NCBI GenBank assembly: GCA_902617805.1
Contig: CACMYF010000007.1
Span: 1-44,199 of the forward strand
From: an uncultured Pelagibacteraceae bacterium
GTDB taxonomy: Bacteria; Pseudomonadota; Alphaproteobacteria; Pelagibacterales; Pelagibacteraceae
DNA: 44,199 nucleotides
Reading direction: 5' to 3'
Made by a program: the position numbers and the translations under genes. Shown here piece by piece: positions 16,030 through 34,437 of this stretch (positions are counted from its first letter, which is position 1; every line of letters begins with the position of its first letter). The notes beneath the pieces are model-generated. The model had not been told where the DNA came from and made no database searches. It was given only the letters and a program-made list of their open reading frames with translations.

Positions 16030-16992
16030 TTATTTAGATAAATCAGGATCTATTTTAGATGCAGCTTCCCATAAAGCTTTTACAGCATCTATTGAATGCA
16101 TAAATTCTTTTTTTTCTTTTTCATCTAAATCAATTTCTTCAATTTTTTCTACACCATCTTTTCCAATGATAACAGGAACACCTGCATAAACATTTTTCAC
16201 ACCATATTCTCCATTTAATTGTACAGCGCAGGGTAATAATTTTTTCTGATCATTTAAATATGCTTCTGCCATTTGAACACCTGAAGCTGCTGGTGCATAA
16301 AAGGCTGATCCTTTTTCTAAATATTTAACTATTTCCGCACCACCATCTCGTGTTCTTTGATTAATTTCCTCAACTCTTTCTGAAGAAATCTTTCCATCCT
16401 TTACAAGATCCAACAATGGTTTACCTGAAATTTTTGTAAATCTTGGCATAGGAACCATGGTGTCACCATGACCACCCATAACCATTGCCTCAATTTCTCT
16501 TACTGGCACATTTAGTTCTAATGATAAAAATAATTTAAATCTCGAACTATCTAAAATACCTGCCATACCAACAACTTTATTTGATGGCAAACCTGAAAAT
16601 TTTTGAAATGCCATAACCATAACATCTAACGGATTAGTGATGCAGATCACAAAAGCGTTAGGAGCATTTTTCTTTACCCCTTCAGCAACTTGTTTAATAA
16701 TTTTTAAATTTATTCCAAGAAGATCATCTCGGCTCATTCCAGGTTTTCTTGGAACACCTGCTGTAATTATTATTACATCTGAATCTTTTATATCCTCATA
16801 GTTATCAGTTCCTGAAAACCTAACATTGAAACCATCTACAGATGAAGATTGTGCAATATCTAATGCTTTTCCTTTTGCAATACCGCTAGCTACGTCAAAT
16901 AAAACTACTTCATTAACTAATTCTTTTGTTCCTATTAAATGTGCAAGAGTTCCACCTATTTGGCCTGCACCAATTAAAGATATTTTTGTCAT
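16030..16992 (-). CDS. mdh: Malate dehydrogenase (LDH-like type)
   Basis: NAD-dependent oxidation of malate to oxaloacetate in the TCA cycle. The 320-aa protein has the NAD fold GAGQIGG (8-14) with D33 ending the second strand. Substrate arginines are R82 and R88 in [10 protein letters not shown], a third arginine is in DSSRF (about 151), and the catalytic His is H175 in [10 protein letters not shown]82 at the specificity position marks malate rather than lactate. It belongs to the lactate-dehydrogenase-like MDH clade usual in alphaproteobacteria. It lies 9 bases downstream of the mmsA-type gene and 2 bases before sucC. Confidence 0.97.
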
Positions 16993-17001
16993 TTATTTCC
17001 T

Positions 17002-18495
17002 TTATTTCATTGTTGGCATAACAAATTCCGCATTTGATCGGACACCTGAAGGCCATCTAGATGTTACTGTTTTAAGTTTAGTGTAAAATTTTATTCCTTC
17101 CATACCATGCATTCCGCTATCTCCGAATAATGATCTTTTCCAACCACCAAAACTATGAAATGCCATTGGAACAGGGATAGGTACGTTAATACCAACCATA
17201 CCTACTTGAATTTTACTTGCAAAAGTTCTGCCTGCATCACCGTCTCTTGTATAAATACTAACTCCATTTCCGTACTCATGGTCGTTAATTAATTTTGCAG
17301 CTTCTTCAAAAGTTTTTACTCGAACAACTGATAAGACTGGACCAAATATTTCTTCTTTGTAAATTCTCATATCTTTATTTACATGATCAAATAAACATCC
17401 ACCTATATAGAAACCATTTTCATAGCCTTGGAGTTTTAAACCTCTACCATCAACTACTAACTTTGCGCCTTCCTTGACACCTAAATCAACGTAGCTTGTA
17501 ACTTTTTCTAAATGTTCTTTTGTAACTAAAGGTCCCATTTCTGATGCTTTATCCATTCCAGGACCAACTTTTAAAGCTTCAGCTTTTTTTGATAATCTTG
17601 ATACAAGTTCATCACCGATGTCTCCAACCGCAACCGCAACTGATTGAGCCATACATCTTTCTCCAGCTGAACCATAAGCAGCACCCATTAAACCATTTAC
17701 TGCTCCATCTAAATCACAATCTGGCATAACAACTAAATGGTTTTTTGCTCCACCCAAAGCTTGAACTCTTTTTTCATTTTTAGCTGAATTTTCATAAATA
17801 TATTTTGCAATAGGAGTAGATCCTACGAAACTAACAGCTTTGATATCTTTGTTTTCTAAAATTGCATCAACAGCTTCTTTATCTCCATTTATCACGTTAA
17901 ATACTCCTTCTGGAAGACCCGCCTCAGAAAGTAGTTCTGCTAATCTTATTGCGCAAGAAGGGTCTTTTTCAGATGGTTTAAGAATAAAAGTATTTCCACA
18001 AGCTATTGCTATTGGAAACATCCACATTGGTACCATAGCAGGAAAATTAAAAGGTGTGATACCTGCAACAACTCCTAATGGTTGTCTAATTGACCAACTA
18101 TCAACATTGGTACCAACATTTTCTGAAAACTCACCTTTTAATAAATGTGGTATTCCACAAGCAAATTCTACCACCTCAAGTCCTCTAGTTAAAGAGCCTC
18201 TTGCATCTTCATAAACTTTTCCATGTTCTGAAACTATTAACTTCGTTAATTCATCAGAATTTTTTTCAATTAATTCTTTAAATTTAAATATTATTCTAGC
18301 TCTTTGTAGAGCAGGTTTTAAAGACCAAGTTTCAAATGCTTTTTTTGCTACTTCAACAGCACTATCTAAGTCAGATCTTGAAGCAAGTCTTACCTCTGAC
18401 TCTTGTTCGCCGGTTGCTGGATTAAAAACTTTCCCTTTTTTATCTGAAGATCCCGGAATTATTTTACCGTTTACGAAGTGTTCTATTAATTTCAT
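17002..18495 (-). CDS. mmsA: CoA-acylating methylmalonate/malonate-semialdehyde dehydrogenase
   Basis: Aldehyde dehydrogenase of the MmsA type, which oxidises methylmalonate semialdehyde to propionyl-CoA or malonate semialdehyde to acetyl-CoA with NAD and CoA. At 497 aa it matches the family. The nucleophile is C281 in GSAGERCMAQS, the MmsA-specific context. The substrate tunnel segment reads GITPFNFPAMVPMWMFP (145-161), and the NAD-binding FVGSTPIA is at 223-230. The general-base Glu of ordinary ALDHs is replaced by Gly/Ala-type residues (LGGAKNH, about 247-253), as expected for CoA-acylating members. It sits between sdhB (39 bases) and mdh (9 bases). Family is certain; the in vivo substrate is inferred. 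Confidence 0.92.
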   Translation of the reverse strand: MKLIEHFVNGKIIPGSSDKKGKVFNPATGEQESEVRLASRSDLDSAVEVAKKAFETWSLKPALQRARIIFKFKELIEKNSDELTKLIVSEHGKVYEDARGSLTRGLEVVEFACGIPHLLKGEFSENVGTNVDSWSIRQPLGVVAGITPFNFPAMVPMWMFPIAIACGNTFILKPSEKDPSCAIRLAELLSEAGLPEGVFNVINGDKEAVDAILENKDIKAVSFVGSTPIAKYIYENSAKNEKRVQALGGAKNHLVVMPDCDLDGAVNGLMGAAYGSAGERCMAQSVAVAVGDIGDELVSRLSKKAEALKVGPGMDKASEMGPLVTKEHLEKVTSYVDLGVKEGAKLVVDGRGLKLQGYENGFYIGGCLFDHVNKDMRIYKEEIFGPVLSVVRVKTFEEAAKLINDHEYGNGVSIYTRDGDAGRTFASKIQVGMVGINVPIPVPMAFHSFGGWKRSLFGDSGMHGMEGIKFYTKLKTVTSRWPSGVRSNAEFVMPTMK

Positions 18496-18534
18496 GAATA
18501 CGGTGTTTTAGATCAAAAATATCGAATAGTCTAT

Positions 18535-19314
18535 TTAAACATTAGCTGTTGCTAACATTTTTTTTATTTCAGCTATAGCTTTTGCTGGATTCAAGCCCTT
18601 AGGACATGCATTTGTACAGTTTAATATTGTATGGCATCTATATAATTTTAATTCATCAGAAACTTTTTTTAATCTAGCTTTTCTCTCTTCATCTCTACTA
18701 TCAATAATCCATCTATAAGCCTGTAGCAGAACTGCTGGACCTAAATATTTATCTCCATTCCACCAATAACTTGGGCAAGATGTAGAACAGCAAGCACACA
18801 TAATGCATTCGTAAGCACCATCAAGTTTTGCTCTATCTTCTTTAGACTGATAAATTTCTGTTGTCTGTTTTGTTGAGTTATTTTTTAACCAAGGTTCAAT
18901 TGATTGATACTGTTTGTACAATCCATCCAAATCACCAATTAAATCTTTTTTAACTTTTAAATGAGGTAGAGGATAAATATCAATATCTCCTTCAATTTCA
19001 GCATGTGGAGTGGTGCAAGCAAGGCCATTTTTACCCCCCATATTCATTGCACATGAACCACATACACCATGAGCACAAGATCTTCTGTATGTTATAGTTG
19101 AGTCGATTTCATTTTTGATCTTATTTAAAATATCTAAGACCTTTGAAGGACAATTATCCATGTCAACTTCATAAGTGTCTATCCTAGGACCTTCATCTGT
19201 GGATGGATCCCATCTATAAATATTTACTTTTCTTAAATTTTTTGATCCTGTTTTATCTTTAAAGTATTTACCTTTTTTAATTTCAGAATTCTTAGGTAAA
19301 CTCAATTGAACCAT
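18535..19314 (-). CDS. sdhB: Succinate dehydrogenase iron-sulfur subunit
   Basis: Passes electrons from FAD in SdhA to ubiquinone. All three cluster ligand sets are visible in the 259-aa protein: [2Fe-2S] C80, C85, C88, C100; [4Fe-4S] C170, C173, C176, C237; [3Fe-4S] C180, C227, C233. The quinone-site Trp lies in [10 protein letters not shown] (179-188). The N-terminus is shifted a little relative to E. coli, as in other alphaproteobacteria and mitochondria. The start codon overlaps the sdhA stop by one base (19314), pointing to coupled translation. Confidence 0.98.
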
Positions 19315-21089
19315 TAATATACTCGCTCTTGTGGTGGAAAATATTGAACTTCGTTTGTTAAAGTTGATTTGTGTACTTCTCTGTAACTTATCTTTGTATT
19401 TTTCCCATCACACCAAGCAAGAGTATGTTGCATAAACTTTTCGTCATCTCTATTTGGATAGTCATCTCTCGCGTGGGCACCTCTACTCTCTTTTCTATGA
19501 TATGCAGATTCTACAGTAGTTACTGCTTGTCTTATTAAATTATCAAATTCCAATGTTTCAACTAAATCAGTATTAAATACTAAAGACCTATCTTTAACTG
19601 AGATTGTGTCCATACCATCATAGGTTTTTTTAATCTCATCTACACCTTCTTTAAGATTTTTTTCTGTTCTAAAAACTGCACATTTGGACTGCATAGTTTT
19701 TTGCATTGAAAGTCTAAGTTCTGCAGTACTGTTATCTCCTTCTGCATTTCTAAGTTTATCAAATCTATCTAAACATTTTTGTGTTTCTGACTCGGGAATT
19801 TCTTCATGAGGTGTTCCTGGCTTAACTAATTCTGCTGCTCTTTTAGCTGCTGCTCTTCCAAATACTACTAAATCAATTAAAGAATTAGAACCAAGTCTAT
19901 TTGCTCCGTGAACAGAAACACATGCCGCTTCTCCTATAGCCATTAAACCTGGAACAGTTTTTTCTGAGCCATTTACAGTTAATACTTCTGCTTTATAGTT
20001 TGTTGGAATACCACCCATATTATAATGAACTGTTGGTACAACAGGAATTGGTTCCTTAGTTACATCTACATTTGCAAATAATCTTGCTGCATCAGTAATT
20101 CCAGGAAGCCTGCTTTCAATAACCTCTTTATCTAAGTGACTTAGGTTCAAATGAACATGATCTTGATCTTTTCCAACACCTCTTCCCTCATTAATCTCTA
20201 TAGACATGGATCTGCTAACAACATCTCTTGATGCTAAATCTTTTGCATTTGGAGCGTACCTTTCCATAAATCTTTCACCTTTAGAATTTGTAAGATAGCC
20301 CCCTTCTCCTCGCGCACCTTCTGTTATTAAAGTACCATGGCCGTAAATTCCTGTTGGATGAAATTGAACAAATTCCATATCCTGAAGCGGTAATCCAGCT
20401 CTTAAAACCATTGCATTACCATCACCTGTGCAAGTATGTGCTGATGTTGCTGAATAATAAACTTTTCCATAACCACCAGTAGCAATAATTACTGTGTGCG
20501 CTCTAAATCTGTGAATTGTGCCATCATTCAAATTCCAAGCAATTAGACCTTTGCATTCTCCATTCTTCATCAACAAATCTAATGCAAAATATTCTATAAA
20601 AAATTCTGTATTATGCTTTAAAGCTTGTCCATATAATGTGTGTAAAATAGCATGTCCTGTTCTATCAGCTGCTGCACAAGTTCTTTGGACTATTCCATTT
20701 CCATAATTTTTTGTCATTCCACCAAATGGTCTTTGATAAATTTTTCCCTCTTCAGTTCTACTAAATGGAACTCCGTATTTCTCCAATTCTAAAACCGCTT
20801 TAGGTGCTTCTTTACAAAGGTATTCAATACTATCTTGATCACCTAACCAATCTGCACCTTTGACAGTATCATACATGTGCCATCTCCAATCATCTTCTCC
20901 CATATTTCCTAATGCTGCTGATATTCCACCTTGTGCAGCTGATGTATGACTTCTGGTAGGAAATACTTTTGAGATACAAGCTGTTTTTAAGCCAGCTTCA
21001 CTAAGCCCTACTGCCGCTCTTAAACCTGATCCACCTGCACCAAGTACAACAACATCGTACTCATGGTCTATAATATTATATGCTTTCAT
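19314..21089 (-). CDS. sdhA: Succinate dehydrogenase flavoprotein subunit
   Basis: Oxidises succinate to fumarate and hands electrons to SdhB. The 591-aa protein has the FAD-binding GAGGSG (17-22), the flavin-attachment histidine H48 in [11 protein letters not shown], the substrate loop [21 protein letters not shown] seen in two adjoining parts, and the active-site [11 protein letters not shown] near residue 400. The C-terminal [14 protein letters not shown] is typical. It overlaps sdhD by 4 bases and sdhB by 1 base within sdhCDAB. Confidence 0.99.
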
Positions 21090-21415
21090 GTATTTAAGTT
21101 AAAAATTACAATTATTGTAATTACTGGAATTGTTATAGCAAAAAAATTTAGTACTTTGTTTGCGGCATTTTTGGTTTTTTTATCGTCAATATAGTCTTCA
21201 AAAACCTCACTTATAGTCAAAGCTGAAAAAAAATAAGCAATAACTAAAAATAATCCAATTAAGAATTTAGATGGTTGCGTTGTTAAAAAATTCACTATTT
21301 CTAAATAACTTTTATCATAAATATTTACTAAATTTATAATAAACCAAAGCATTAAAGGTAATAAGATTGCGGAACTAATTTTTAAGAATAACCATTTTTT
21401 TGTTACTGGCAGCAT
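21086..21415 (-). CDS. sdhD: Succinate dehydrogenase membrane anchor SdhD (no His or Cys)
   Basis: Small membrane anchor that, with SdhC, holds the SdhAB head and forms the quinone site. The 109-aa protein has three hydrophobic helices (about 12-32, 48-70, 86-106). [11 protein letters not shown] (about 68-78) aligns with the conserved region ending in the quinone-site Asp-Tyr of other SdhDs. The heme b ligand His normally 12 residues before that Tyr is Phe here, and the whole protein contains no His or Cys. Identification rests on position between sdhC and sdhA, size, topology and the EDY motif. Confidence 0.9.
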
Positions 21416-21795
21416 TATATTAATCCTCTACCAATTGTATAAATTAAGATGGTTAAAATAATCGAACCAAAAATAACTAGCAAACCTGTAATTCTTGTTG
21501 TTTGTAATTCAAATCCATAGCCTAAATCCATAAACAAGTGTCTTACTTCACTTAACATTTGAAAACTAAATGACCAGGTTATTCCAATTAAAATAAATTT
21601 ACCTAAAAAGGTTTCTAAAAAAATTTTTATAATTTGATAATTACTTTCTCCTAGAAGCATTAATGCAAACCAAATACAAATTAATGTAATTGCAAAAAAA
21701 TTAATTATTCCTGTAATTCTATGTGAAATAGATACTAATGAAGAAATATGCCATTTATAAATCTGTATATGTGGTGATAGAGGTCTGTTTTCCAT
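21415..21795 (-). CDS. sdhC: Succinate dehydrogenase cytochrome b556 subunit
   Basis: Membrane subunit contributing to heme b and ubiquinone binding. The 126-aa protein begins RPLSPHIQIYKWHISSLVSI (residues 4-23), the classic SdhC N-terminus, followed by SHRITG (24-29). Ser24 and Arg28-region residues correspond to the quinone site. H86 in EVRHLFMDLG matches the E. coli heme ligand His84. Three transmembrane helices are evident (about 28-48, 62-85, 102-122). It is first of sdhCDAB, starting 3 bases after asd. Confidence 0.96.
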   Translation of the reverse strand: MENRPLSPHIQIYKWHISSLVSISHRITGIINFFAITLICIWFALMLLGESNYQIIKIFLETFLGKFILIGITWSFSFQMLSEVRHLFMDLGYGFELQTTRITGLLVIFGSIILTILIYTIGRGLI

Positions 21796-21798
21796 ATT

Positions 21799-22794
21799 TT
21801 ATTTTGAATTAATAATTGTTTCAGCAATTTCAACTGAATTTAGAGCTGCACCTCTTAATAAATTATCTGATACTATCCATAAATTAATAGAATTCTCTTT
21901 TGTTTTATCTTCTCTAATTCTTGAAATATAAGTCTCGTCTTTTCCTGTGGCTTCTAGTGGCGTGCTATAACCTCCATTTTCTCTTTTATCAATAACCTCA
22001 CATCCGTCTGCTTTACTTAAAACATCTCTCACTTTTTCTAAAGTATATGGTTTTTCAAATTCTATATTTACAGACTCCGAATGAGACACTAAAACAGGAA
22101 TTCTTACACATGTAGCTGTAAGTTCAATTGAATTATCTAAGATTTTTTTTGTTTCATTTGTCATTTTTAATTCTTCTTTTGTATATCCATCATCAGCAAA
22201 AACATCGATATGTGGAATAACATTAAAAGCGATTTGTTTAGTAAAATTTTTTGACTCTATTTTTTTTCCATCTAAATATTGTTTAGTTTGATCAATTAAT
22301 TCATCCATTGGAATTTTGCCACCACCTGAAACAGATTGGTAAGTTGAAACTACAACTCTTTTAATTTTGAATAAATCATGTAGTGGTTTAAGTGCTATAA
22401 CAAGTTGTGCTGTAGAACAATTTGGATTGGCAATAATATTTTTTTTCATATTTTTAATTTCAGCTGCATTCACTTGTGGAACGATCAATGGAACATCAGG
22501 ATCCATCCTAAAAAAACTTGAATTATCTATTACAATTGTGTGCTTGGCAGCCTTTTCTGCAAATTTTTCTGCAATTTTTCCTCCTGCTGCAAAAAAAGTT
22601 ATATCTGCTTTTGAAAAATCATATGTTTCTAAATTTTCAATAACATACTCTTTATCTCTAAAAGAGATTTTTTTTCCTGCACTTTTTTCTGAGGCAACTA
22701 AATATAGATTATCAAACTTAAAGTTTTTTTTATCAAATACTTCAAGAGTTTTTCTCCCAACATTTCCTGTTGCACCTACTATAGCTATGTTCAT
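21799..22794 (-). CDS. asd: Aspartate-semialdehyde dehydrogenase
   Basis: NADPH-dependent reduction of aspartyl phosphate to aspartate semialdehyde, the branch point to lysine/diaminopimelate, threonine and methionine. The 331-aa protein has the nucleotide fold GATGNVGRK (7-15), the catalytic C126 in NPNCSTAQL and H238 in SHSESVNIEF. Length and motifs fit the family. In many alphaproteobacteria asd lies next to leuB; here a four-gene dmd cassette stands between them. It begins 15 bases after dmdA, so it may be co-transcribed with the cassette. DapF at 34438 belongs to the same lysine/cell-wall branch. Confidence 0.97.
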   Translation of the reverse strand: MNIAIVGATGNVGRKTLEVFDKKNFKFDNLYLVASEKSAGKKISFRDKEYVIENLETYDFSKADITFFAAGGKIAEKFAEKAAKHTIVIDNSSFFRMDPDVPLIVPQVNAAEIKNMKKNIIANPNCSTAQLVIALKPLHDLFKIKRVVVSTYQSVSGGGKIPMDELIDQTKQYLDGKKIESKNFTKQIAFNVIPHIDVFADDGYTKEELKMTNETKKILDNSIELTATCVRIPVLVSHSESVNIEFEKPYTLEKVRDVLSKADGCEVIDKRENGGYSTPLEATGKDETYISRIREDKTKENSINLWIVSDNLLRGAALNSVEIAETIINSK

Positions 22795-22809
22795 TTTAAA
22801 GTTGTTATA

Positions 22810-23919
22810 CTAAATAAAAGGTAAATCGCAAACTTTACCACTGCAAATATCACCATTTATGCTTGCTTTTACCTTCTGGTCTATATTCCAATGCGATTTT
22901 TTCATCATAGCAATACCAATTACTTTTTTAAAATGAGGCGAATAACAGGCTGACCTTAATTCCCCAATGATTTTGTTATTATCATCAGCCAGATCTAAAG
23001 ATCCTGTTAAACTTATTTTGTCCAAATCTAACTTAACACCCATTAATTTTCTTTTTATACCTTCAGATTTTATTTTCTTTAATTTTTCTTTTCCTAAAAA
23101 AATAACATCACTATCTATGTTGACATATTTATCAAAACCACATTCATAAGGATTATCTCCGTTATCCATATCATTGCCATGAGATAACAGTCCACTTTCG
23201 ATTCGTTCTATTAAATTAGGACACCCTGGTTTAATATTAAATTCTTTTCCAATTTCAAATAAATGATCATATAGTTTTAAGCCTGCTTCAGTATTTTGAA
23301 CATATACTTCATAACCTCCTTGTTTAGACCATCCAGATTGTGCGATAAGGTGTTTTGCACCTCCAAATTCAAAATAATCAAAACCAAAAAATTTTAATTT
23401 TGTGATCTGTTCTCCGAATACTTTTTCCATCAATTGAAATGATTTTGGACCTTGTACAGCCATGATATCAACTTTTGGCTCTATGATTTTAACATCAAAT
23501 TTATTTCCAATTGCTAATCCTTTTGCAAATAATATTACGTCCGTATCTGCAATAGAAATCCACCATTTATTTTCATTAATTCTTAAAACAACTGGATCAT
23601 TAATTAATCCAGCATTATCATCTATAATCGGACAATAATAACATCTTCCATCTTTAGATTTTGATAAATCTCTACAAGTCATTAGCTGAACTAATTTTGC
23701 AGAATCTTTTCCTGAAATTTCTACCTGTCTTTCAGCTGCTACATCCCAAATTTGAACATGCTCTTTTAAATGATAATAAGAATCTTCAATTGAACCAAAG
23801 GCAGCTGGAAGCAACATATGATTATAAATTGTATAAGCTGTAACACCCTGTTCCTCAATTCGAGAAGTATATGGTGTACCTCTAAGTCTTCTTGATTTTG
23901 CAATTAAAAAGTTTTTCAT
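22810..23919 (-). CDS. dmdA: Dimethylsulfoniopropionate demethylase
   Basis: Moves a methyl group from DMSP to tetrahydrofolate, giving 3-methylmercaptopropionate and 5-methyl-THF. The 369 aa have the GcvT fold and equal the known Pelagibacter DmdA in length. The N-terminus ([20 protein letters not shown], residues 9-28) and the segment [13 protein letters not shown] (195-207, with W197 and Y206) fit DmdA better than glycine-cleavage T protein. In place of the GcvT catalytic GG-I-I-D-D region there is GLINDPVV (104-111), as in DmdA. It overlaps the hydrolase by 4 bases and is clustered with dmdB and dmdC, which removes most doubt. The remaining alternative is another DmdA-like THF methyltransferase. 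Confidence 0.93.
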
Positions 23920-24692
23920 TTTTTCAAAAATTCTAAAACTTTGTCTCTCATTTCAAATGCTTTTTCAATCATAATCATATGGCCACAACCCTCAATTATG
24001 TGTGTGGATGAGTTATTAATTAGACTAGAAAATTTTTTTCCAGCTTCTAGATTTACCATCTTATCTAGAGAGCCAAAAATAAACATTGATGGAAATTCTA
24101 TTAATTTAGCAGCTTCAGAACCATTTTTGTAATTGTTACATGCAACAAGATCCACCGCCAGTATGTCTCTTATGTCTCGAGGTGATTGTATTATTTTTTC
24201 TACTGGGTTACCTCCAATAAATCTTTTTGAACCTTCATAACCCCACTTCATCATTAATTTAACAGCATCAGAGTCCCCATTTTTTGCTAGATCAATTAGA
24301 TCTGGATGAACTGGCATCTTATTTGACCCTCCGATAAAAACTAACTTTTTTAATCTATTTTTATATTTATGAGCATATTCAAGTATCTCCAAGCAACCTT
24401 GAGAATGACCAATTAAAATTAGATTATTTAAATTAAGTTTATTAAAAACCTGTTCCAACCAATCAGCTATTTTTTCAATACTATCTAAGCAAGGGCCATC
24501 AGAATTACCATGCCCAGGCAAATCAATAGATAATACGTTAAAATTATTATTTGAAAAAAACTGTTCAGTTAGAGACCAAACAATATGTGAAAGACCACTT
24601 CCATGAAGAAATACTATTGTTTCTTTATTTTGATCAATACCCTGTCCTGCATCAGACGCATAAACATTTTTATTTTCCAATTGAAAATTCAA
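23916..24692 (-). CDS. Alpha/beta hydrolase of the dmd cassette, substrate unknown
   Basis: The 258-aa soluble protein has a complete alpha/beta-hydrolase core: oxyanion segment FLHGSGLSH (28-36), nucleophile elbow GHSQG with S97, acid D210 in FGSLDKMV, and catalytic His H238 in EGCGHM. No signal peptide is present, so it is cytoplasmic. It starts 7 bases after dmdB and overlaps the start of dmdA by 4 bases, so it is almost certainly translated with the DMSP enzymes. Cassettes in other bacteria use the crotonase-like DmdD for the last step, which is missing here. A thioesterase or hydrolase acting on a CoA thioester or aldehyde-level intermediate is an attractive guess, not a demonstrated role. 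Confidence 0.85.
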
Positions 24693-24699
24693 AAATTAC

Positions 24700-26316
24700 C
24701 TAAACTTGTTTTCTCAATTCAAACTTTTGTATTTTTCCTGTCGAAGTTTTTGGCAAATCACAGAACACAACCTTTTTAGGAACTTTAAATCCCGCTAAAG
24801 TTTCTTTACAAAAATCAATTAATTCTTTTTCTGATACCGGCTTATCTTTAACCATTTCAATAAATGCACAAGGAACTTCTCCCCATTTTTCATCTGGTTT
24901 TGCAACAACTGCGGCAATTGAAACTGATGGATGTTTAGAAAGTGTATTTTCTATTTCAATTGAGGAAATATTTTCTCCTCCAGAAATAATTATATCTTTT
25001 GATCTATCTTGTATTTTTACATACCCATCAGGATGCATTACAGCTAAATCACCACTATGAAACCATCCATCTTTCATGGCTTTATCAGTAGCATCTTTGT
25101 CTTTAAAGTAACCTTTCATTACGACATTCCCTCTAATCATAATTTCACCAATTGTTTTTCCATCTTTAGGAACTTCTTTCATTGTTTCTGGATCCAAAAC
25201 AACGACACCTTCAGTATTTGGATATCTCACACCTTGCCTAGCCTTAATTTCATTTTGTTTTTCCTCATCGAAATTGTTCCATTCATCATTCCACGCACAC
25301 TGAGTAACATGTCCATAAGTTTCCGTTAAACCGTATACATGCATAACTTCAAAACCTAATGCTCTCATTTTTTTGAAAATTATACTTGGCGGTGGCGCTC
25401 CAGCAGTCAAAACATAAACTTTTTGTTTTAATTTTTTTTTGTCACTTTCAGGAGCTCCTGTAATCATATTTAATACTATTGGGGCACCACCAAAATGAGT
25501 TACTTCATATTTATCGATTAATTCAAAAATTTTTTTTATATCAATATTTCTTAAACAAATTGTCCTTCCGTTTAACATTGGAACTGTCCATGGATAACAC
25601 CAACCATTACAATGAAACATTGGAACCACTGTTAAAAAATTTAATCTATTTGGCATGTCCCAAGCTACCGAACTTCCTGTAGACATTAAATATGCACCTC
25701 TATGATGATAAACTACTCCTTTGGGATTTCCTGTAGTACCTGATGTATAGCTTAATGATATTGCTTGCCATTCATCCTCTGGCATTTGCCAATCGAAATT
25801 TTCATCACCTGTATTTAAAAAACTTTCATATTCTAAATCGCCAATTTTTTCTAATTTCGATTGATCAGCGTTTTTATCATCTATATCAATTATTATAATT
25901 TTTTTATTTAAAGTTTTTAATGCCTTCTTAACTTCTCCATGTAATTGTCTATCAACTACTAGTACCTTTGCATCACTATGATCTAAAATATATGAAATTG
26001 TATTTGCATCTAATCTTATATTAATAGTATTTAATACTGCACCTGCCATGGGTACTGAGTAATGTCCTTCGAAAATCTCTGGTGTATTAAAGGCTAAGAA
26101 TGAGACAGTGTCTCCTTTTTTAATTCCAATTTTTGACAGTGCACTAGCAAATTTTACAGCTCTTTTGTAAACTTCATTCCAAGTATATTTCCTATCTTCA
26201 TAAATTATAGCTTCATAATTTGGGTAAATTTCCCTTGCTCTTTTAAGAAACGTTAATGGGGTAAGTGGTACGTAGTTAGCTTTATTTTTATCTAAATTTG
26301 TCTCGTAATGATTCAT
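24700..26316 (-). CDS. dmdB: 3-methylmercaptopropionyl-CoA ligase
   Basis: Acyl-adenylate-forming CoA ligase that activates methylmercaptopropionate (MMPA), the second step of DMSP demethylation. The 538-aa protein shows the P-loop TSGTTGNPKG (191-200), the acyl-pocket segment VPMFHCNGW (231-239) seen in DmdB and related short/medium-chain ligases, YGLTETYG, SGGENISS, and the catalytic lysine K528 in STGKIQKFELR. The start MNHYETNLDKNKANYVPLTP resembles DmdB-type enzymes. It lies 2 bases after dmdC and 7 bases before the hydrolase. A general fatty-acyl-CoA ligase would look similar; the neighbours decide the name. Confidence 0.88.
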   Translation of the reverse strand: MNHYETNLDKNKANYVPLTPLTFLKRAREIYPNYEAIIYEDRKYTWNEVYKRAVKFASALSKIGIKKGDTVSFLAFNTPEIFEGHYSVPMAGAVLNTINIRLDANTISYILDHSDAKVLVVDRQLHGEVKKALKTLNKKIIIIDIDDKNADQSKLEKIGDLEYESFLNTGDENFDWQMPEDEWQAISLSYTSGTTGNPKGVVYHHRGAYLMSTGSSVAWDMPNRLNFLTVVPMFHCNGWCYPWTVPMLNGRTICLRNIDIKKIFELIDKYEVTHFGGAPIVLNMITGAPESDKKKLKQKVYVLTAGAPPPSIIFKKMRALGFEVMHVYGLTETYGHVTQCAWNDEWNNFDEEKQNEIKARQGVRYPNTEGVVVLDPETMKEVPKDGKTIGEIMIRGNVVMKGYFKDKDATDKAMKDGWFHSGDLAVMHPDGYVKIQDRSKDIIISGGENISSIEIENTLSKHPSVSIAAVVAKPDEKWGEVPCAFIEMVKDKPVSEKELIDFCKETLAGFKVPKKVVFCDLPKTSTGKIQKFELRKQV

Positions 26317-26318
26317 TA

Positions 26319-28082
26319 TTAATTAAACTTAAAATTCATTATATTAGAACTTCCAGAAATAGCAGATTTGTAATGGTACTCAGCTCTAGGCAGTACCTTA
26401 TCAAAATAAAATTTTGCTGTATTTATTTTATCACTATAAAATTCTTTATTTTTTTCAAAATCACTAAAACTTATATCTAAAATTTTGATCCAAGCATAAG
26501 CAATTGAAACATATCCCAGACTTCTCAAATAATCATTTGCTGCAGCACTAACATCGTCCTTTTCGATTTTATGTTTATCCTTAATCCAGTCGGTAAACTT
26601 AGATAAAATATCTAAATAATGATTTAATTCTTTTGAAAATGTTTTTACTTTTTCATTTTTACTATCAGATTCAGATTTAATCATATCTAAAAACTTATTA
26701 ATAACATCGCCATTTTTATTTGATAATTTTCTAAATACTAAATCTGCTGCCTGAACAGAATTTGTTCCTTCATAGATTGGGGTAATACGATTATCCCTAT
26801 ATAATTGCTCTATTCCTTGGTCTTTAGTGTATCCATATCCACCATGTATTTGCATCGCGTCGTTCGTAATTTCCATTGCTAAATCTGTAAATAATGACTT
26901 AACAACTGGTGTCATCAATGAAACATAATCCAAAGCTTCTTGTTTAATCTTTTCATCAGGATGATAAAGACTCACCTCAGTTTGTTGTGATAACCAAAAA
27001 CATAAGGCTCTTTCTCCTTCAATAATTGACTTCATATTAAGTAAAGATCTTCTAATATCCGCATGATCTATTATAAAGTCTGCACCATTTGTAGATTTTG
27101 AATTATTTGTTTTTCCTTGCTTTCTCTCTTTTGCATAAGCAAGTGAGTTCTGATACGCAATTTCAGAAATTCCTAAACCTTGAATACCTACCACTATTCT
27201 CTCAAGGTTCATCATAGTAAACATAGCACTAAGACCTTTATCTTTGTTACCAATCATATAACCAGTTGCTTCATCAAAATTTAACACACATGTTGCTGAA
27301 CCCTTTATTCCCATTTTACTCTCTATAGATCCTGTTGAAATTCCATTTCTTTGACCAACACTACCATCTTCATTTACAATAAATTTTGGTACTAAAAATA
27401 AACTAATTCCTTTAGTGCCCGCAGGAGAGTCCGTTGATCTTGCTAAAACTAAATGAATAATATTTTCAGTTAAGTCATGATCACCAGAAGTTATAAAAAT
27501 CTTTTGACCACTAATTTTATAGGTGTCATCAGATTGTTTGACGGCTTTGGTTTTTAACAAACCTAAGTCCGTACCACAGACTGGTTCTGTTAAACACATA
27601 GTGCCACTCCATTTACCTTCGACGATCTTTGGTAAATATTTATCTTTAATTTCATCTGAAGCATGATGATTAATACAATTATAGGCACCAATACTAAGTT
27701 CACTATATAATTTAAATGACAAACTGGCTGAAGAAAGCATTTCATCAAAGAACGCGCTTACTGTTTTTGGCATTCCTTGGCCTCCATATTTGGGGTCGCA
27801 AGACAATGACGTCCAACCATCCTCAATGTATTTCTGATATGCTTCTTTGTAACCCGGTGGTGTTCTGACAACACCATTTTCTAAAATTGCTGGATTTTCG
27901 TCACCTGCTTTAGCAAGAGGTAAAATTAAATTTTGATTTATTTTTGCTGCTTCCTCTAAAATATCTTTAACAAGATCTGCACTCACCTCATTATATTTTT
28001 CAAGCTCATTATAATTCTTATTATCTCTTAATTTTTCAAAGAGAAACATCATGTCTTTTACTGGTGCGGTGTAACTTGGCAT
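26319..28082 (-). CDS. dmdC: 3-methylmercaptopropionyl-CoA dehydrogenase
   Basis: FAD-dependent acyl-CoA dehydrogenase that converts MMPA-CoA to methylthioacryloyl-CoA, third step of the demethylation pathway. The 587-aa length is diagnostic: DmdC belongs to the long acyl-CoA dehydrogenase group (~590 aa), not the ~380-aa group. Motifs: MCLTEPVCGTDLG (162-174), KIFITSGDHD (194-203), QIHGGYGYTKD (411-421) and the catalytic Glu438 in YEGTNSVQA. The Asp-containing C-terminal extension domain (about 450-587) is present. It is first of the dmd cassette, 26 bases after leuB with no obvious terminator between them. Confidence 0.88.
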   Translation of the reverse strand: MPSYTAPVKDMMFLFEKLRDNKNYNELEKYNEVSADLVKDILEEAAKINQNLILPLAKAGDENPAILENGVVRTPPGYKEAYQKYIEDGWTSLSCDPKYGGQGMPKTVSAFFDEMLSSASLSFKLYSELSIGAYNCINHHASDEIKDKYLPKIVEGKWSGTMCLTEPVCGTDLGLLKTKAVKQSDDTYKISGQKIFITSGDHDLTENIIHLVLARSTDSPAGTKGISLFLVPKFIVNEDGSVGQRNGISTGSIESKMGIKGSATCVLNFDEATGYMIGNKDKGLSAMFTMMNLERIVVGIQGLGISEIAYQNSLAYAKERKQGKTNNSKSTNGADFIIDHADIRRSLLNMKSIIEGERALCFWLSQQTEVSLYHPDEKIKQEALDYVSLMTPVVKSLFTDLAMEITNDAMQIHGGYGYTKDQGIEQLYRDNRITPIYEGTNSVQAADLVFRKLSNKNGDVINKFLDMIKSESDSKNEKVKTFSKELNHYLDILSKFTDWIKDKHKIEKDDVSAAANDYLRSLGYVSIAYAWIKILDISFSDFEKNKEFYSDKINTAKFYFDKVLPRAEYHYKSAISGSSNIMNFKFN

Positions 28083-28108
28083 ATTTAAAGCTTAGAATAA
28101 TTCTGATT

Positions 28109-29215
28109 TTATTGCAATTTTGAAATTATCGCATCACCCATTGCTGACGTGGAAGTCTCTTTCATACCCTCTGACATTATATCTTTAGTTCTTAACCCAT
28201 CATTTAAAACATCTTGAACTGCTTTTTCTAAAATATCTGCTTCTTTATCAAGATCTAAAGAATATCTTAGTGCCATAGCAAAGCTCAAAATAGAAGCAAT
28301 TGGATTTGCTATCCCTTTACCAGCTATATCTGGAGCTGAACCGTGTATAGGCTCGTACATCGCTCTCATCTCACCATCTTTATTTTTTGCGCCTAAAGAT
28401 GCTGATGGTAAAAGACCTAAAGATCCCGTTAACATTGAAGCTTGGTCTGACAACATATCTCCAAACAAATTATCTGTTACAATTACATCAAATTGTTTTG
28501 GATTTCTTAAAAGCTGCATAGCACAATTGTCTGCTAACATATGACTTAATTCTACATCTTTGTATTCTTTTTCATGAAGTTCTTGGACTTCTTCTTTCCA
28601 CAATTGTCCTGCTTCCATCACATTTGATTTTTCACATGAAGTAACCTTGTTTGATCTTTTTCTAGCTAAATCAAAAGCGATCCTAGCTACTCTAGTAATT
28701 TCACTAGTCGTATAAGTGTGTGTATTAATTCCTTTTCTTTGTCCATTTTCAATTGGCTTAATTCCTCTAGGTTCACCAAAATATATACCACCCGTTAACT
28801 CTCTTACTATCATTATATCTAGTCCTGAAACTATTTCTGGCTTTAGGGTTGAAGCATCGACTAACTGTTTAAAACAAATTGCAGGCCTTAAGTTAGCAAA
28901 AAGCTTTAATTCTTTTCTAAGTTTTAATAATGCCCTTTCTGGTTTTTTAGAAAATTCTAGGTTATCCCATGTAGGACCACCAACTGCTCCAAGCATAATT
29001 ACTTCACTTTCTAGTGCTTTGTAAAAAACCTCATCAGTGATTGGGGTACCGTGTTTATCATAAGAACAACCACCAACTAACTCCTGATCAATTTCAAAAT
29101 CTAAAGATTTTTTATCATTAAACCAGTTAATAATTTTTTTTACCTCAGCTATTACCTCTGGACCAATACCATCACCAGGAAGTAAAAGTATTTTTCTTTT
29201 TTTTACTTTAATCAT
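28109..29215 (-). CDS. leuB: 3-isopropylmalate dehydrogenase
   Basis: NAD-dependent oxidative decarboxylase of leucine synthesis. The 368-aa protein has the start [16 protein letters not shown] (6-21), [14 protein letters not shown] (the LeuB-specific loop), the lysine/aspartate active-site stretch [11 protein letters not shown] and [14 protein letters not shown], and the NAD loop [17 protein letters not shown]. These separate it from isocitrate and tartrate dehydrogenases. Its start overlaps the end of leuD by 8 bases. It is the last of leuC-leuD-leuB, and the dmd genes follow. Confidence 0.97.
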
Positions 29216-29813
29216 TAAACACCCAAGGCTTTTCGTTTTTTAAATTTGTTTCAAACTTCTTTATTTTTTCTGATTTTTTTAGTGATAAAGCGATATCATC
29301 AAGCCCTTCTAACAAACATTTTTTCTTAAATGGATCAACTTCAAATTTTAGCTCATTATTTCCATAAACTATTTTTTCCTCTTGCAAATCAATAGAAATT
29401 TCTTCTTGTCTATTTGCGTATTCAGATAGCTCTTTGATTTTTTCTTCTTCAAGGATTATAGGCAAAATTCCATTTTTAAAACAATTACTAAAAAAAATAT
29501 CTGCATAACTTGAACTAATTACACAAGTAATTCCAAAATCTAATAAAGCCCAAGGAGCATGTTCTCTTGATGAACCACATCCAAAGTTTTTTCCAGCAAT
29601 TAAAATTTTAGATTGATTAAATGGATCTTTGTTTAAAACAAAATCATTTATTTCTTTGCCTTGATCATCATATCTCATTTCAAAAAACAAATTTTTTCCA
29701 AGACCGGTTCTTTTGATAGTTTTTAAAAACTGTTTTGGAATTATCATATCTGTATCAATATTTACAATTGGTAAATAAGCTGGGATACTTTTTAATTTAT
29801 TAAATTTTTGCAT
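29208..29813 (-). CDS. leuD: 3-isopropylmalate dehydratase small subunit
   Basis: Swivel-domain subunit of isopropylmalate isomerase, which converts 2- to 3-isopropylmalate together with LeuC. The 201-aa protein has [15 protein letters not shown] near the N-terminus and [17 protein letters not shown] (about 74-90), the LeuD signature, followed by [18 protein letters not shown]. The start adjoins the leuC stop (29813/29814) and the end overlaps leuB by 8 bases, so the three are translated from one message. Confidence 0.98.
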
Positions 29814-31217
29814 TTAATTTTGATACTTTCTGACATCATCTAAATTACCTGAAATTGCTGCTGCTGCGGCCATTCCTGGACTAACCAGATGGGTTCTACC
29901 ACCTCTACCTTGTCTTCCCTCAAAATTTCTATTTGATGTAGAGGCGCATCTTTCTTCTGGCTTTAATTTATCGGCATTCATCGCTAAACACATAGAGCAA
30001 CCTGGTTCTCTCCATTCAAACCCTGAGCTAACAAAAATTTTATCTAGCCCTTCTTGCTCTGCTTGTTCTTTAACTAAGCCTGAGCCTGGAACTACTATTG
30101 CATTAACATGCGATGATACTTTTTTATCTTTTAGGATTTTTGCTGCTTCTCTCAAATCCTCTATTCTGCCATTAGTACAACTACCAATAAATACTTTATC
30201 TATTTTTATATCTGTGGCTGCCATATCAGGTTTTAAACCCATATACTTTAAAGCTCTTTCAATTGAATTTTTTTTATCTTCATCAGTCTCATTATTTGGA
30301 TTTGGAACTTTTCCATCAATTGTTATTACATCTTGTGGTGACGTACCCCATGTAATCATAGGTAAAATTTCATTTGCGTTAAGGCTAATTTCTTTATCAA
30401 AACTAGCATCAGAGTCTGTTTTTAAAGTTTCCCAATAGTTCAAAGCTTTATCCCAATTTTCACTTTTTGGTGACATTGGTTTTCCTTTTAAATATTCAAA
30501 AATTTTTTCATCTGGTGCAATTAATCCTGCTCTTGCACCACCTTCGATTGTCATATTGCAAATAGTCATTCTTTGCTCAACACTTAAAGATCTTATTAAA
30601 TCTCCAGCATATTCCACAACAGATCCTGTACCACCCGCTGTACCTATTTTTCCAATTATTTGAAGTATTACATCTTTAGAAGTAACTCCTAAAGGAAGTT
30701 CACCATTAACATTAATTCTAAAATTTTTAGCTTTCTTCTGAACTAGTGTTTGGGTTGCTAAAACATGTTCAACTTCTGAAGTTCCTATTCCAAATGCTAA
30801 AGCACCAAATGCTCCATGCGTTGCGGTATGACTGTCTCCACAAACAATAACTGTACCTGGTTGAGTAAAACCTTGTTCAGGTCCTATGATATGAACGATA
30901 CCTTGCCTCTTATCATCCATACCAAACAACTGAACACCGAATTCTTTACAATTTGCCTCTAAAGTATCTACTTGAATTTTTGACTCTTCATCTGAAATAC
31001 CTTTTGATCTGTCAGTTGTTGGAACATTATGATCTGCAACTGCTAAAGTTAAATTTGGGTGTCTAACTTTTCTATTAGAATTTCTTAATCCTTCAAAAGC
31101 TTGGGGGCTTGTCACCTCATGAATTAAATGTCTATCTACAAAAAGTAAAGATGTGCCATCATCTTGTTGATCAACTAGATGATCGTTCCAAATTTTATCG
31201 TATAATGTTGTAGACAT
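29814..31217 (-). CDS. leuC: 3-isopropylmalate dehydratase large subunit
   Basis: Aconitase-family subunit carrying the [4Fe-4S] cluster. The 467-aa protein begins [12 protein letters not shown] and contains [20 protein letters not shown], plus the cluster cysteine in [13 protein letters not shown] and the pair in [12 protein letters not shown]-terminal [20 protein letters not shown] is diagnostic of LeuC over aconitase. It lies 11 bases after rplS. The rplS-leuC-leuD-leuB order is a recurrent alphaproteobacterial arrangement as far as I know. Confidence 0.98.
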
Positions 31218-31228
31218 TGAAAAAAAAA

Positions 31229-31771
31229 TTATTTTTTTTCTGTAGAGCTTTCTGATTTTTGTTCTTCTTTAGGAGCCTCTGTTGCTGGAGCAGCCTCTTC
31301 TTTAGGTGCTGTTTCTGCTTTAAGAGCCTCTTCTTTAGGTGCTTCAACTGCAGGAGCTACATTTTCCTCTGTAACTGTCTCTGGTTTTGCCTCGATATCA
31401 ATACCAATTTTTTTTCTAATTTTTTCTGCAATCCTTGCTGATTTACCAGTTCTGTCTCTTAGATAATAAAGTTTTGCTCTTCTTACTTTACCTGATCTAA
31501 TAACCTTAATTGAATCAATTAAAGTTCCAAATAAAGGAAAAGTTCTCTCAACACCCTCTCCAAATGAAATTTTTCTAACCGTAAAAGATGAGTTTAAGTC
31601 CCTGCTTTTTTTAGCAATACATACTCCCTCAAAATATTGAATTCTTTCTTTTTTACCCTCAGTAATTCTCACACCAACCTTAACAACATCTCCAGGATAA
31701 AATTCTGGAATTTTTTTCTCTGAAAGAATTTTGTTAACGTTATGTTGGTTTATTTCTTCAATTGTTTTCAT
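31229..31771 (-). CDS. rplS: 50S ribosomal protein L19 with long acidic/Ala tail
   Basis: L19 lies at the 30S-50S interface. The core (about 1-120) shows [51 protein letters not shown] and the basic [13 protein letters not shown] chose the ATG at 31769-31771; an in-frame TTG 15 bases upstream (31784-31786) has the better AAGAAG ribosome-binding sequence but would add five residues not usual for L19. Either start follows trmD immediately. The normal length is about 115-120 aa; this one has 180 because of a tail (about 125-180) rich in Ala, Glu, Lys and Pro with repeated APKEE units. The same kind of tail occurs on S16 nearby. Confidence 0.95.
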
Positions 31772-31787
31772 GTTAATATTTATCAAG

Positions 31788-32474
31788 TTAATTCTTCTTA
31801 TATTTTTCCCATAAATCAGGTCTTCGGACGCGTGTTATAGCCTCAGATTGAGATAAACGCCAGTGTTTAATTTTATTATGATCACCTGATAATAGTACGT
31901 CTGGCACAGCTTTTTCCTCCCAAATTTGAGGTTTTGTATACTGAGGGTACTCTAGAAGACCATTTTCAAAGGTTTCATCTAATTTAGAGTTTTCATTTCC
32001 TAATACACCTGGCAGCAATCTTAAAATACTATCTATTACTACATATGCTGCTGACTCTCCGCCTGACAAAACATAATCTCCAATACTAATTTCCTCAATA
32101 TTTCTTGTTGAAAGTATTCTTTCATCCACACCTTCAAAATGACCACAAATTAAAGACAGAGATTTTTCATTAGCTAGCTCTTTCGCTAAATTTTGATCAA
32201 ATTTTTTTCCTTTTGGTGATAAGTATAAAATTCTCTCATTCTCATTTTTGTTTTCATCTAAAGACTTTGCAAGAACATCTGCTTTTAACAGCATCCCTGA
32301 ACCACCCCCGTAAGGTGTGTCATCTACTGTTTTATGTTTGTCATCAGCTGAATCTCTTATGTTTACAACTTTAAGTTTCCATAAATTATTTGATAAAGCT
32401 TTTCCATAAAGTCCTTTAGATAAAGGACCAGGAAAAACCTCTGGATAAAGTGTAAACACTTGAGCTTGCCACAT
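31788..32474 (-). CDS. trmD: tRNA (guanine-37-N1) methyltransferase
   Basis: Methylates G37 of tRNAs next to the anticodon, preventing +1 frameshifts; SAM-dependent with a trefoil-knot fold. The 228-aa protein begins [17 protein letters not shown] and contains [18 protein letters not shown], then the knot residues [11 protein letters not shown] and [16 protein letters not shown]. The C-terminal part [19 protein letters not shown] is typical. It lies between rpsP and rplS. In most proteobacteria rimM separates rpsP and trmD; here only 14 bases do. Confidence 0.97.
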
Positions 32475-32488
32475 AAATAATCTTTAAA

Positions 32489-32905
32489 TTATTTTTTTTC
32501 CTCTGCTGGAGCTGCTTCTGCTTTAGGAGCTTCTTCCTTAGGAGCTTCTGCTGCTGGAGCTGCTTCTGCTTTAGGAGCTTCTTTATTATCCTCTTCTTTT
32601 TTATTTCTCTCTTTTTTTGGCACTGCTTTATTTGGATTATTTCCATTTGCAGGCATAGGCATTAGTTCGTTCTCACCTAAAATTCTTGCTACTCTCGTTG
32701 TTGGTTGAGCTCCTTGACCAAGCCAATATTTAATTCTCTCAGCTTCTAGGCCCACTCTTTCTTTTTTCTCTTTTGGTAATAGAGGATTAAAGAAACCAAC
32801 CTTTTCTATAAATCTTCCATCTCTTGCAAAACGACTGTCGGCAACAACAACCTTATAAACAGGACGTTTTTTTGTTCCACCTCTTGATAATCTTAATTTT
32901 AACAT
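32489..32905 (-). CDS. rpsP: 30S ribosomal protein S16 with repeat tail
   Basis: S16 is needed for 30S assembly. The core (1 to about 80) begins [20 protein letters not shown] and contains [13 protein letters not shown] and [17 protein letters not shown], as expected. The ordinary length is 80-90 aa; here 138, because residues 84-138 form a Lys/Glu then Ala/Pro/Glu tail with a 16-residue unit repeated. The start is preceded by a strong AAGGAG six bases upstream, a good ribosome-binding site by the standards of this window. It lies 13 bases after ffh and 14 before trmD. Confidence 0.97.
32504..32583 (-). repeat. Direct repeat in the S16 tail (two identical 32-base copies)
   Basis: A 32-base sequence at 32504-32535 recurs without change at 32552-32583, an offset of 48 bases or 16 codons, so the reading frame is kept. 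The spacer between them holds a further partial copy. The unit encodes the Ala/Glu/Pro/Lys pattern of the S16 tail. A 36-base segment of it (32543-32578) matches the L19 tail (31274-31309) at 30 positions. Confidence 0.9.
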
Positions 32906-32918
32906 TTGTTCTCCTTTT

Positions 32919-34277
32919 TTACTTTAATTGGTTAAATAGCTCTGGCGGTATACCTTTATCAGACATACCTTTCAGATTTCCTTTTGACATCTTTTTCATC
33001 ATTTCAGACATCATTTTAAATTGCTTAAGCAATTTATTGATAGTGGCCGGATCTGTGCCAGAGCCATTAGCAATTCTTTTTTTTCTAGAACCATCTATTA
33101 TTTTTGGGTTCTCTCTTTCTTTTTTTGTCATTGATAAAATAACAGCTTCATTTTTAGTAATTATACTTTCATCAATTCCCGCTGAGTCCATTTGGGATTT
33201 AATTTTAGAAACTCCTGGCATAAAAGACATGATTCCCTCAATACCACCCATTTTTTTCATTTGTCTTAATTGAGATAAATAATCTTCCATAGAGAATTGA
33301 CCTTTTTTTAAATTTTCCTCTGCTTTTTTAAGATTTTCTTCTCCTAAATCTTGAGCCGCCTTTTCTACAAGGGATACAATATCCCCCATACCAAGTATTC
33401 TGTTTGCAATTCTGTCTGGATGGAATACTTCAAGATTATCTATTTTTTCTCCTATCCCTAAAAATTTAATTGGAACGTTTGAAACATATTTCATACTCAC
33501 TGCAGCTCCACCTCTTGCATCACCATCAGCCCTAGTTAAAATAATTCCAGATAAATTAACTGTATTTTTAAATTCTTTTGCCACTGAGGCTGCAACTTGA
33601 CCTGTTAAAGAGTCTGCAACTAAAAAAGTTTCTGTTGGATTAATGACAGCTTCAATTTGCTTAATCTCACTCATCATTTGTAGATCGATTTGAGTTCTAC
33701 CAGCAGTATCAAATAAAATTATTTCAGCTCCATTTAAATTAGCAGCACTTATTGCTCTTCTACAAATATCAGCAGGTTGCTGACCTTCTATAATAGGTAA
33801 AGTTAAAATATTATTTTGTTCTCCTAAAGATCTAAGTTGTTCTTGTGCAGCTGGTCTGTAAATATCTAGACTGACCATCATTACTTTTTTCTTTTTATTA
33901 TTTTCTAAAAATTTTGCTAATTTTGCTGTAGTTGTTGTTTTTCCAGAACCTTGTAATCCAACTAACATCATTGGCACAGGCGGTACCGCGTTTAAGTTTA
34001 TCTCATTATTTGTTGCACCTAATAAGTCTACAAGCTCATCATAAACAATTTTAACAACCATATCCCCAGGAGAGGTAGACCTTATTATCTCTTGGCCTAA
34101 TGCTTTTGGCTTAACTTTTTCAATAAAATCTTTTGCAACATCCAATGAGACATCTGCTTCAAGTAAGGCTTGTCTAATGCCTCTTAAACCTTCATCTACT
34201 TGAGCTTCATCAAGTGAAGGTGCCTTTTTCAGAGAAGAAAAAATTTCTTCAAATTTATTTGTTAAATTTTCAAACAT
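32919..34277 (-). CDS. ffh: Signal recognition particle GTPase Ffh
   Basis: SRP54 homologue that binds SRP RNA and signal sequences of nascent membrane proteins and docks with FtsY. I start it at the ATG 34275-34277 ([18 protein letters not shown]); the frame stays open further upstream to a GTG but that stretch is a structured leader, not plausible protein. The 452 aa show the N domain (1-85), the G domain with P-loop GLQGSGKT (107-114), DTAGR and [11 protein letters not shown], and the methionine-rich M domain from about 300, including SFMPGVSK and the closing [13 protein letters not shown]. Its partner FtsY is only 1 kb away on the other strand. Confidence 0.97.
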
Positions 34278-34390
34278 ATTTATTACGCATAGCAGTAACG
34301 CACTAGTGGGCGAACCCTCGCTGACTAGTGTCGATCTCTTTGTTTCCAAAGACACCGCAAAGTTAATGTTTTTGCGGAAACGGCAACAAC
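34278..34390 (-). promoter_or_regulatory. Predicted structured leader upstream of ffh
   Basis: Read on the minus strand, three hairpins follow each other: CCGCAAA/TTTGCGG with a 9-base loop (34355-34377); TCTTTG-GAAA-CAAAGA, a 6-bp stem closed by a GNRA tetraloop (34337-34352), extendable by GTGTC/GACAC; and CACTAGT/ACTAGTG enclosing GCGA/TCGC (34301-34330). Two alternative pairings compete: GTTGTTGC with GCAAAAAC (34368-34390) overlaps the first hairpin, and GTGTC/GACAC shares bases with the third. It is much more GC-rich and symmetrical than other spacers here. It may regulate ffh or be a separate small RNA. I know no family name for it. Confidence 0.45.
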
Positions 34391-34391
34391 C

Positions 34392-34397
34392 TATAAT
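34392..34397 (+). promoter_or_regulatory. Candidate -10 element for dapF-ftsY
   Basis: A perfect TATAAT lies 41 bases before the dapF start, predicting a leader of about 35 bases. The -35 region (TTTTTG, 17 bases upstream) is poor. On the opposite strand the overlapping bases read TATTAT, so the same spot could serve ffh, making this a possible bidirectional promoter between the two divergent SRP-related units. Confidence 0.4.
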
Positions 34398-34437
34398 AGA
34401 GGTTCAAAAAGTCAATAAATAAGTTAAATATCTATAT

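Follow-up and report, generated by a model that had tools for sequence, protein, structure and literature searches.

A dimethylsulfoniopropionate demethylation cassette inserted between leuB and asd in an uncultured Pelagibacteraceae bacterium, with FadB as a candidate for its missing last step

Introduction

How does a nutrient pathway come to lie inside a run of housekeeping genes, and which enzyme might complete it where the clustered genes stop one step short? These questions are raised by a stretch of DNA of 44,199 nucleotides (here called the window) from an uncultured Pelagibacteraceae bacterium, a relative of 'Candidatus Pelagibacter ubique' HTCC1062, in which four genes predicted to act in the demethylation of dimethylsulfoniopropionate (DMSP) lie between leuB and asd. 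The window is contig C7 of a genome of 891 kb that is 78% complete. On the evidence set out below, we think it probable that the four genes represent the DMSP demethylation set already known from Pelagibacter (SAR11), that they entered an ancestral leuB|asd junction as one block, and that they are now embedded in a co-directional housekeeping run.

The gene set itself has already been published for HTCC1062, for which the Figure 1 legend of PMC3160333 lists dmdA-mhpC-fadD-mmgC, the same four gene kinds as in the window. The locus tags of dmdA (SAR11_0246) and trmD (SAR11_0254) in that strain differ by eight; the window shows the same spacing, and this suggests a shared order, leu genes included. 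The available text of PMC3160333 on the HTCC1062 cassette does not mention leuB, nor do the open-licence papers found on the DMSP cassette, and a prior description in subscription papers is possible (Bullock 2014; Sun 2016). Across the open-licence literature, SAR11, dmdA and fadB are mentioned together only in work on SAR86. According to the available parts of PMC5069961, HTCC1062 cannot use sulfate and needs compounds such as DMSP as a source of sulfur, DmdD is absent, alternate enzymes have been hypothesized, and the enzyme making methanethiol is itself only hypothesized. New here are the insertion site, the lack of a last-step gene in the cassette, the FadB candidate, the loss of the hydrolase gene and a likelier link to asd through O-acetylhomoserine.

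Results

An earlier note on this DNA had described the order leuC, leuD, leuB, dmdC, dmdB, hydrolase, dmdA, asd, sdhCDAB as tightly packed, and had proposed that a cassette was inserted into an ancestral leuB-asd block. Gene order is as described, with all genes on the minus strand (Table 1), and the gaps from leuB through dmdC, dmdB, the hydrolase gene and dmdA to asd are 26, 2, 7, -4 and 15 nt. The same order recurs in all 18 other genomes of the genus that were fetched, split over two contigs in one of them (G101) and without the hydrolase gene in six, and is therefore attributable neither to chance nor to an assembly fault.

The proposed insertion is likewise supported, both by empty sites in relatives and by a survey of the class. 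Among ten fetched relatives without a cassette at this position the site is closed in eight, where leuB and asd adjoin with 9-15 nt between their aligned ends (four genomes of genus g4, two of g2 and one each of g5 and g12); in two g9 genomes (G009 and G022) leuB adjoins sdhC and no asd is close by. Four of the eight closed-site genomes (G015, G061, G027 and G075) carry a cassette elsewhere, and in the other four no DmdA over the cut-off was found. The class survey comprised 68 genomes, of which 49, not counting that of the window, had listings for both leuB and asd. The two genes are less than 350 bp apart in 20 of the 49, within 2.5 kb in five, and farther apart or on separate contigs in 24 (G221 being counted by its second-best leuB, which is beside asd, while its best leuB lies about 950 bp from another asd). 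The leuB|asd junction is an insertion site for the DMSP block. In a tree built from LeuB, SdhA and SdhB (35 rows, leaving out g10, g13 and g14), the genera g9, g12 and g5 branch first, all without the cassette at the site, and an insertion after these branches is well supported on this phylogenetic evidence.

Table 1. Positions in the window of the cassette genes, their flanks and the surrounding run
Feature	Position	Strand	Evidence
Co-directional run ffh, rpsP, trmD, rplS, leuCDB, cassette, asd, sdhCDAB, mmsA, mdh, sucCDAB, lpd, priA, atpHAGDC	1460-34355	-	
leuB, 3-isopropylmalate dehydrogenase, flanking the insertion site on its upstream side	28109-29215	-	TIGR00169, 467.5 bits (cut-off 353.2)
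dmdC-like acyl-CoA dehydrogenase, 587 aa, predicted methylmercaptopropionyl-CoA dehydrogenase	26319-28082	-	Pfam Acyl-CoA_dh domains and Acyl-CoA_dh_C (PF12806)
dmdB-like acyl-CoA synthetase, 538 aa, predicted methylmercaptopropionyl-CoA ligase	24700-26316	-	PRK08162, 868.1 bits (cut-off 677)
accessory alpha/beta hydrolase gene, 258 aa, TTG start codon	23916-24692	-	PF00561
dmdA, DMSP demethylase, 369 aa	22810-23919	-	NF009133, 578.1 bits; 3tfh, 685.5 bits
asd, aspartate-semialdehyde dehydrogenase, flanking the insertion site on its downstream side	21799-22794	-	NF011456, 475.7 bits (cut-off 223)

The assignment of the set to DMSP demethylation is anchored by DmdA, which clears the cut-off of the NCBIfam equivalog NF009133 (410 bits) and matches structure 3tfh over its full length, residues 1-369. 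That entry is named as a GcvT-like aminomethyltransferase and is, we assume, the P. ubique DmdA. By family, then, the window gene is a true dmdA, predicted to encode a DMSP demethylase. With the comparison limited to the top 80 of 550 confirmed loci, its closest named relatives are Pelagibacteraceae contigs at up to 99% identity; these 80 loci, some of them on the same contigs as the surveyed genomes, are not an unbiased sample. The dehydrogenase aligns with 6ijc, which we take to be a DmdC structure, at 492 bits and with 8png at the higher score of 568 bits, and its 12 NCBIfam matches include no DmdC model.

Nothing in base composition sets the block apart: in GC content, third-position GC and codon usage the cassette genes are no outliers among the genes of the run, although the hydrolase gene is, with sdhB, leuD and atpD, among the four most divergent of 23 genes in codon usage. 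A foreign origin visible in composition was therefore rejected, and nothing recent is apparent. Nor do the data point to another family as the source of the block as a whole, since none of 16 wider class-level dmdA regions has the Pelagibacteraceae order; dmdB adjoins dmdA in four of the 16, and those synthetases are only 52-57% identical.

The earlier note had called the cassette complete, and this did not hold. No open reading frame (ORF) resembling a methylthioacryloyl-CoA (MTA-CoA) hydratase of the DmdD or AcuH type was found between leuB and asd among the window ORFs with NCBIfam and Pfam. In other genera a gene for FadB, a protein of about 740 aa, occupies a constant place in the cassette: it lies between leuB and dmdC in all 12 fetched at-site loci that extend to both sides, and the nine off-site g2/g4 cassettes whose sequence continues upstream of dmdC all have it there. 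A survey of 118 genomes of the family gave 48 genomes of other genera with both genes, and in every one of them FadB and dmdC are separated by no more than 74 nt. Within the window's genus it adjoins dmdC in none of 18 genomes, the nearest case on the same contig being 234 kb away, and in the window's own genome it is encoded at another site (contig C5:2850-5072). Three FadB copies from the genus nest with cassette copies of g14 and g10 (supports 98/97 and 100/98), and FadB has therefore most simply moved out of the cassette.

FadB also follows the cassette in its distribution. It is present as a single copy in all 23 cassette-bearing genomes of a chosen set of 30 and in none of the seven without; across the family it occurs in 57 of 62 genomes with DmdA over the cut-off and in 10 of 56 without, most of these 10 being incomplete. 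Restricting the comparison to the 45 high-quality genomes gives 22 of 24 against 0 of 21. The dmdC gene tracks dmdA just as well (58/62 against 9/56; 23/24 against 0/21 among high-quality genomes), and the co-occurrence counts for FadB, dmdC and the crotonase considered below are not phylogenetically independent. The hydratase domain of FadB keeps, wherever the sequence is readable, the two glutamates that an enoyl-CoA hydratase should have, the motif positions being those that we take to hold in the classical enzymes.

The alpha/beta hydrolase gene appears dispensable. In its product, residues S97, D210 and H238 are invariant in 17 aligned sequences, and its model has the standard alpha/beta hydrolase fold (pLDDT 90), for which a fold search returned esterases, haloperoxidases, lactonases and other alpha/beta hydrolases and nothing specific. 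The gene is missing from 46 of the 80 loci. Between dmdB and dmdA in three of them (L009, L018 and L092) deletion scars retain remnants of hydrolase coding sequence that none of 100 simple shuffles matched in score; no clear remnant was found in the other 49 of 52 gaps, although L110, one of these, also outscored its shuffles, as most of its near-identical sister loci failed to do. Since the breakpoints of the three scars differ, the hydrolase has probably been lost at least three times, as befits an accessory gene. Its best solved sequence relative is 5frd, an enzyme that, in the available text of PMC4861933, binds CoA but acted as a thioesterase on none of the CoA esters tested; given this and the absence from more than half of the loci, a role as an essential thioesterase is unlikely.

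The cassette varies in other ways. A MetF-like gene lies between dmdC and dmdB in seven loci, and OsmC and crotonase genes lie between dmdB and the hydrolase gene in eight of the ten g2/g4 loci with dmdB. Five cassettes spanning several genera (L026, L029, L030, L047 and L050) have a divergent synthetase, 71-73% identical to that of the window as against 77-94% in other loci, and the dmdB and dmdC gene trees conflict with that of dmdA. Together the conflicting trees and divergent synthetases suggest gene-by-gene replacement within the family. Outside the family, a DmdA-like gene is clustered with OsmC and crotonase genes in L185; in L197, dmdA faces an ORF that we presume to encode O-acetylhomoserine sulfhydrylase, after which come relatives of the hydrolase (33%) and of FadB (38%).

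Two further observations concern genes at other loci. In L025 (1278-2429, with leuB forward) an M24-peptidase-like protein is encoded between leuB and FadB; it is closest to the ectoine hydrolase DoeA (172 bits) and faintly resembles the DMSP lyase DddP (27 bits), neither score reaching its cut-off. There is also a second DmdA-like gene, present at several loci: L033 (2443-8820, leuB forward), L056-L059, L185 (4628-10276), L193 (4897-9433) and L194 (74-4169). It is accompanied in L033, L185, L193 and L194 by short genes that we take to be hydroxyisourate-hydrolase-like, by genes presumed to encode thiamine-diphosphate-enzyme-like and flavin-mononucleotide alpha-hydroxyacid-dehydrogenase-like proteins, and in L033 and L185 also by what appears to be a GcvT-like gene. 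The second DmdA-like protein could act on another methylated compound.

The cassette sits in a run (Table 1; names outside leuB-asd and mmsA are those that we presume) in which gaps do not exceed 39 nt from ffh to priA, the largest, 108 nt, being upstream of atpH. That the cassette has no evident promoter of its own, as the earlier note had stated, agrees with a consensus scan of positions 16500-34500 on both strands, which gave 70 promoter-like sites compared with 78.9 in shuffles. No regulatory RNA was found in the cassette, and across the window Rfam matched nothing but the ffh small RNA. From the spacing and these scans it is plausible that the cassette would share its transcription with the housekeeping genes.

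The ffh small RNA (RF01793, 34293-34345, minus strand, 56.9 bits) overlaps the opening codons of the called ffh ORF, which may therefore begin too far upstream. Elsewhere in the window, two genes on the minus strand (31229-31786 and 32489-32905), whose products we take to be the ribosomal proteins L19 and S16, encode repetitive Ala/Glu/Pro/Lys tails, and a large permease of 883 aa (38828-41479, minus strand), presumably similar to tripartite ATP-independent periplasmic transporters, has a long charged C-terminal extension.

Discussion

Our working model follows the route of Ruegeria pomeroyi (DmdA, DmdB, DmdC, DmdD/AcuH), with the same first three reaction types predicted and with a DmdA that belongs to the same equivalog. 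DmdA would demethylate DMSP to methylmercaptopropionate (MMPA), with tetrahydrofolate as the methyl acceptor; the synthetase would convert MMPA to MMPA-CoA and the dehydrogenase would oxidize this to MTA-CoA. From MTA-CoA the off-site FadB, a hydratase/dehydrogenase, would release methanethiol, which could react with O-acetylhomoserine, a product of the pathway downstream of Asd, to form methionine. Unlike in R. pomeroyi, the window synthetase falls outside the DmdB equivalog model and the cassette has no DmdD or AcuH, while relatives of the window carry FadB and those in g2/g4 also a crotonase of another type. The DMSP demethylation genes of Ruegeria are scattered.

Several observations count against parts of this model and lend some weight to other explanations. 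The 25 rows with the cassette at the site fall on one side of a branch whose support is only 39, and this value leaves the relative branching of the g1, g3-like and g2/g4 lineages loose enough for the cassette to have been at leuB|asd already in an ancestor shared with g2/g4, which later moved it and closed the site. The g2/g4 cassettes do share the basic gene order and form a single DmdA clade (support 99*), but such a history needs a clean excision restoring the short junction, where a single gain is simpler; we regard it as possible, though not favoured. The synthetase scores 343.4 bits against the cut-off of 822 for the MMPA-CoA ligase equivalog PRK07008, its best family being PRK08162, and its role as DmdB therefore rests on position. 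With this in mind, and since DmdB and DmdC enzymes elsewhere are broad in substrate according to the available text of PMC5395565, the cassette might chiefly be a short-chain fatty-acid oxidation module joined by dmdA, with DMSP as one of several substrates. The g9 genome G054 bears on the same point, having relatives of FadB and dmdC (50% and 54%) side by side on contig C1:29976-34039 and no dmdA; it hints that the FadB-dmdC pair may be older than its use on DMSP, and such pairs could serve general fatty-acid oxidation. All 21 high-quality genomes of the family without dmdA nevertheless lack both dmdC and FadB, and a chiefly fatty-acid role seems to us unlikely. As to transcription, terminator-like sites in the scanned region numbered 13 compared with 6.7 in shuffles (SD 2.3); two on the minus strand are inside the cassette, at 23613-23591 in dmdA and 27582-27566 in dmdC, and were given little weight because both are within coding sequence. 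Promoter-like matches on the minus strand also occur inside dmdC, dmdB, the hydrolase gene and dmdA, as regulation from an internal promoter would have it, but neither their total nor the Rfam search speaks for independent control, and DmdA, DmdB and DmdC protein levels were constant across the samples of a sulfur-limitation study of HTCC1062, which fits constitutive expression (available text of PMC5069961). Independent regulation of the cassette is thus improbable.

The candidacy of FadB faces evidence of the same mixed kind. Two genomes, G001 (95% complete) and G069 (99%), have dmdA without FadB, G001 lacking dmdC as well, and within the window's genus FadB is found not with dmd genes but among others, which we take to be transporter-, agmatinase- and aldehyde-dehydrogenase-like. 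Moreover, the crotonase (PRK08139/ECHDC3-like; 365.6 bits, cut-off 313), placed between dmdB and the hydrolase gene in g2/g4 and off-site in the window's genus, tracks dmdA equally well (54/62 against 8/56 genomes; 22/24 against 0/21 of high quality). Its recurrent company with OsmC in the g2/g4 cassettes, and with OsmC and a DmdA-like gene in the other family represented by L185, would suit a terminal hydratase. Both classical glutamate positions are, however, occupied by other residues in 16 readable loci from 15 distinct places, and the crotonase is nearest, among solved sequences, to ECHDC3 (2vx2) and 3myb, while 5xzd, which we take to be AcuH, matches more weakly at 96 bits. The crotonase as the terminal hydratase is accordingly a doubtful proposition. 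FadB is favoured because of its linkage to dmdC, its co-occurrence with dmdA and its conserved glutamates, where the crotonase has neither glutamate, and we tentatively propose off-site FadB as the missing, methanethiol-releasing MTA-CoA hydratase, a prediction from gene neighbourhood and conserved residues that we hold at somewhat below even confidence. Equally tentative is the wider proposal that methanethiol release in the Pelagibacteraceae may be carried out by bifunctional FadB assisted by the glutamate-less crotonase and, in some lineages, by OsmC and the MetF-like protein.

The position of the cassette beside asd had been explained in the earlier note by a supply of methyl-tetrahydrofolate for methionine synthesis. 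This logic was not upheld, as neither MetH nor MetE was found over the cut-off in any of 19 genomes of the genus (weaker matches below cut-off were present in 14 for MetH and in five for MetE), and O-acetylhomoserine sulfhydrylase was over the cut-off in all 19. A link through methanethiol and O-acetylhomoserine, joining the cassette to asd at methionine via homoserine, is therefore likelier. Exceptions are given in Table 3 of PMC5069961, which in the part available lists one metH in HTCC7211 and metE in HIMB114.

Conserved neighbourhood and co-occurrence thus name two testable genes for the methanethiol step, those for FadB and for the unusual crotonase. The leuB|asd junction is an example of the way in which a nutrient pathway lodged among housekeeping genes can be acquired, reordered and pared down in a streamlined genome.

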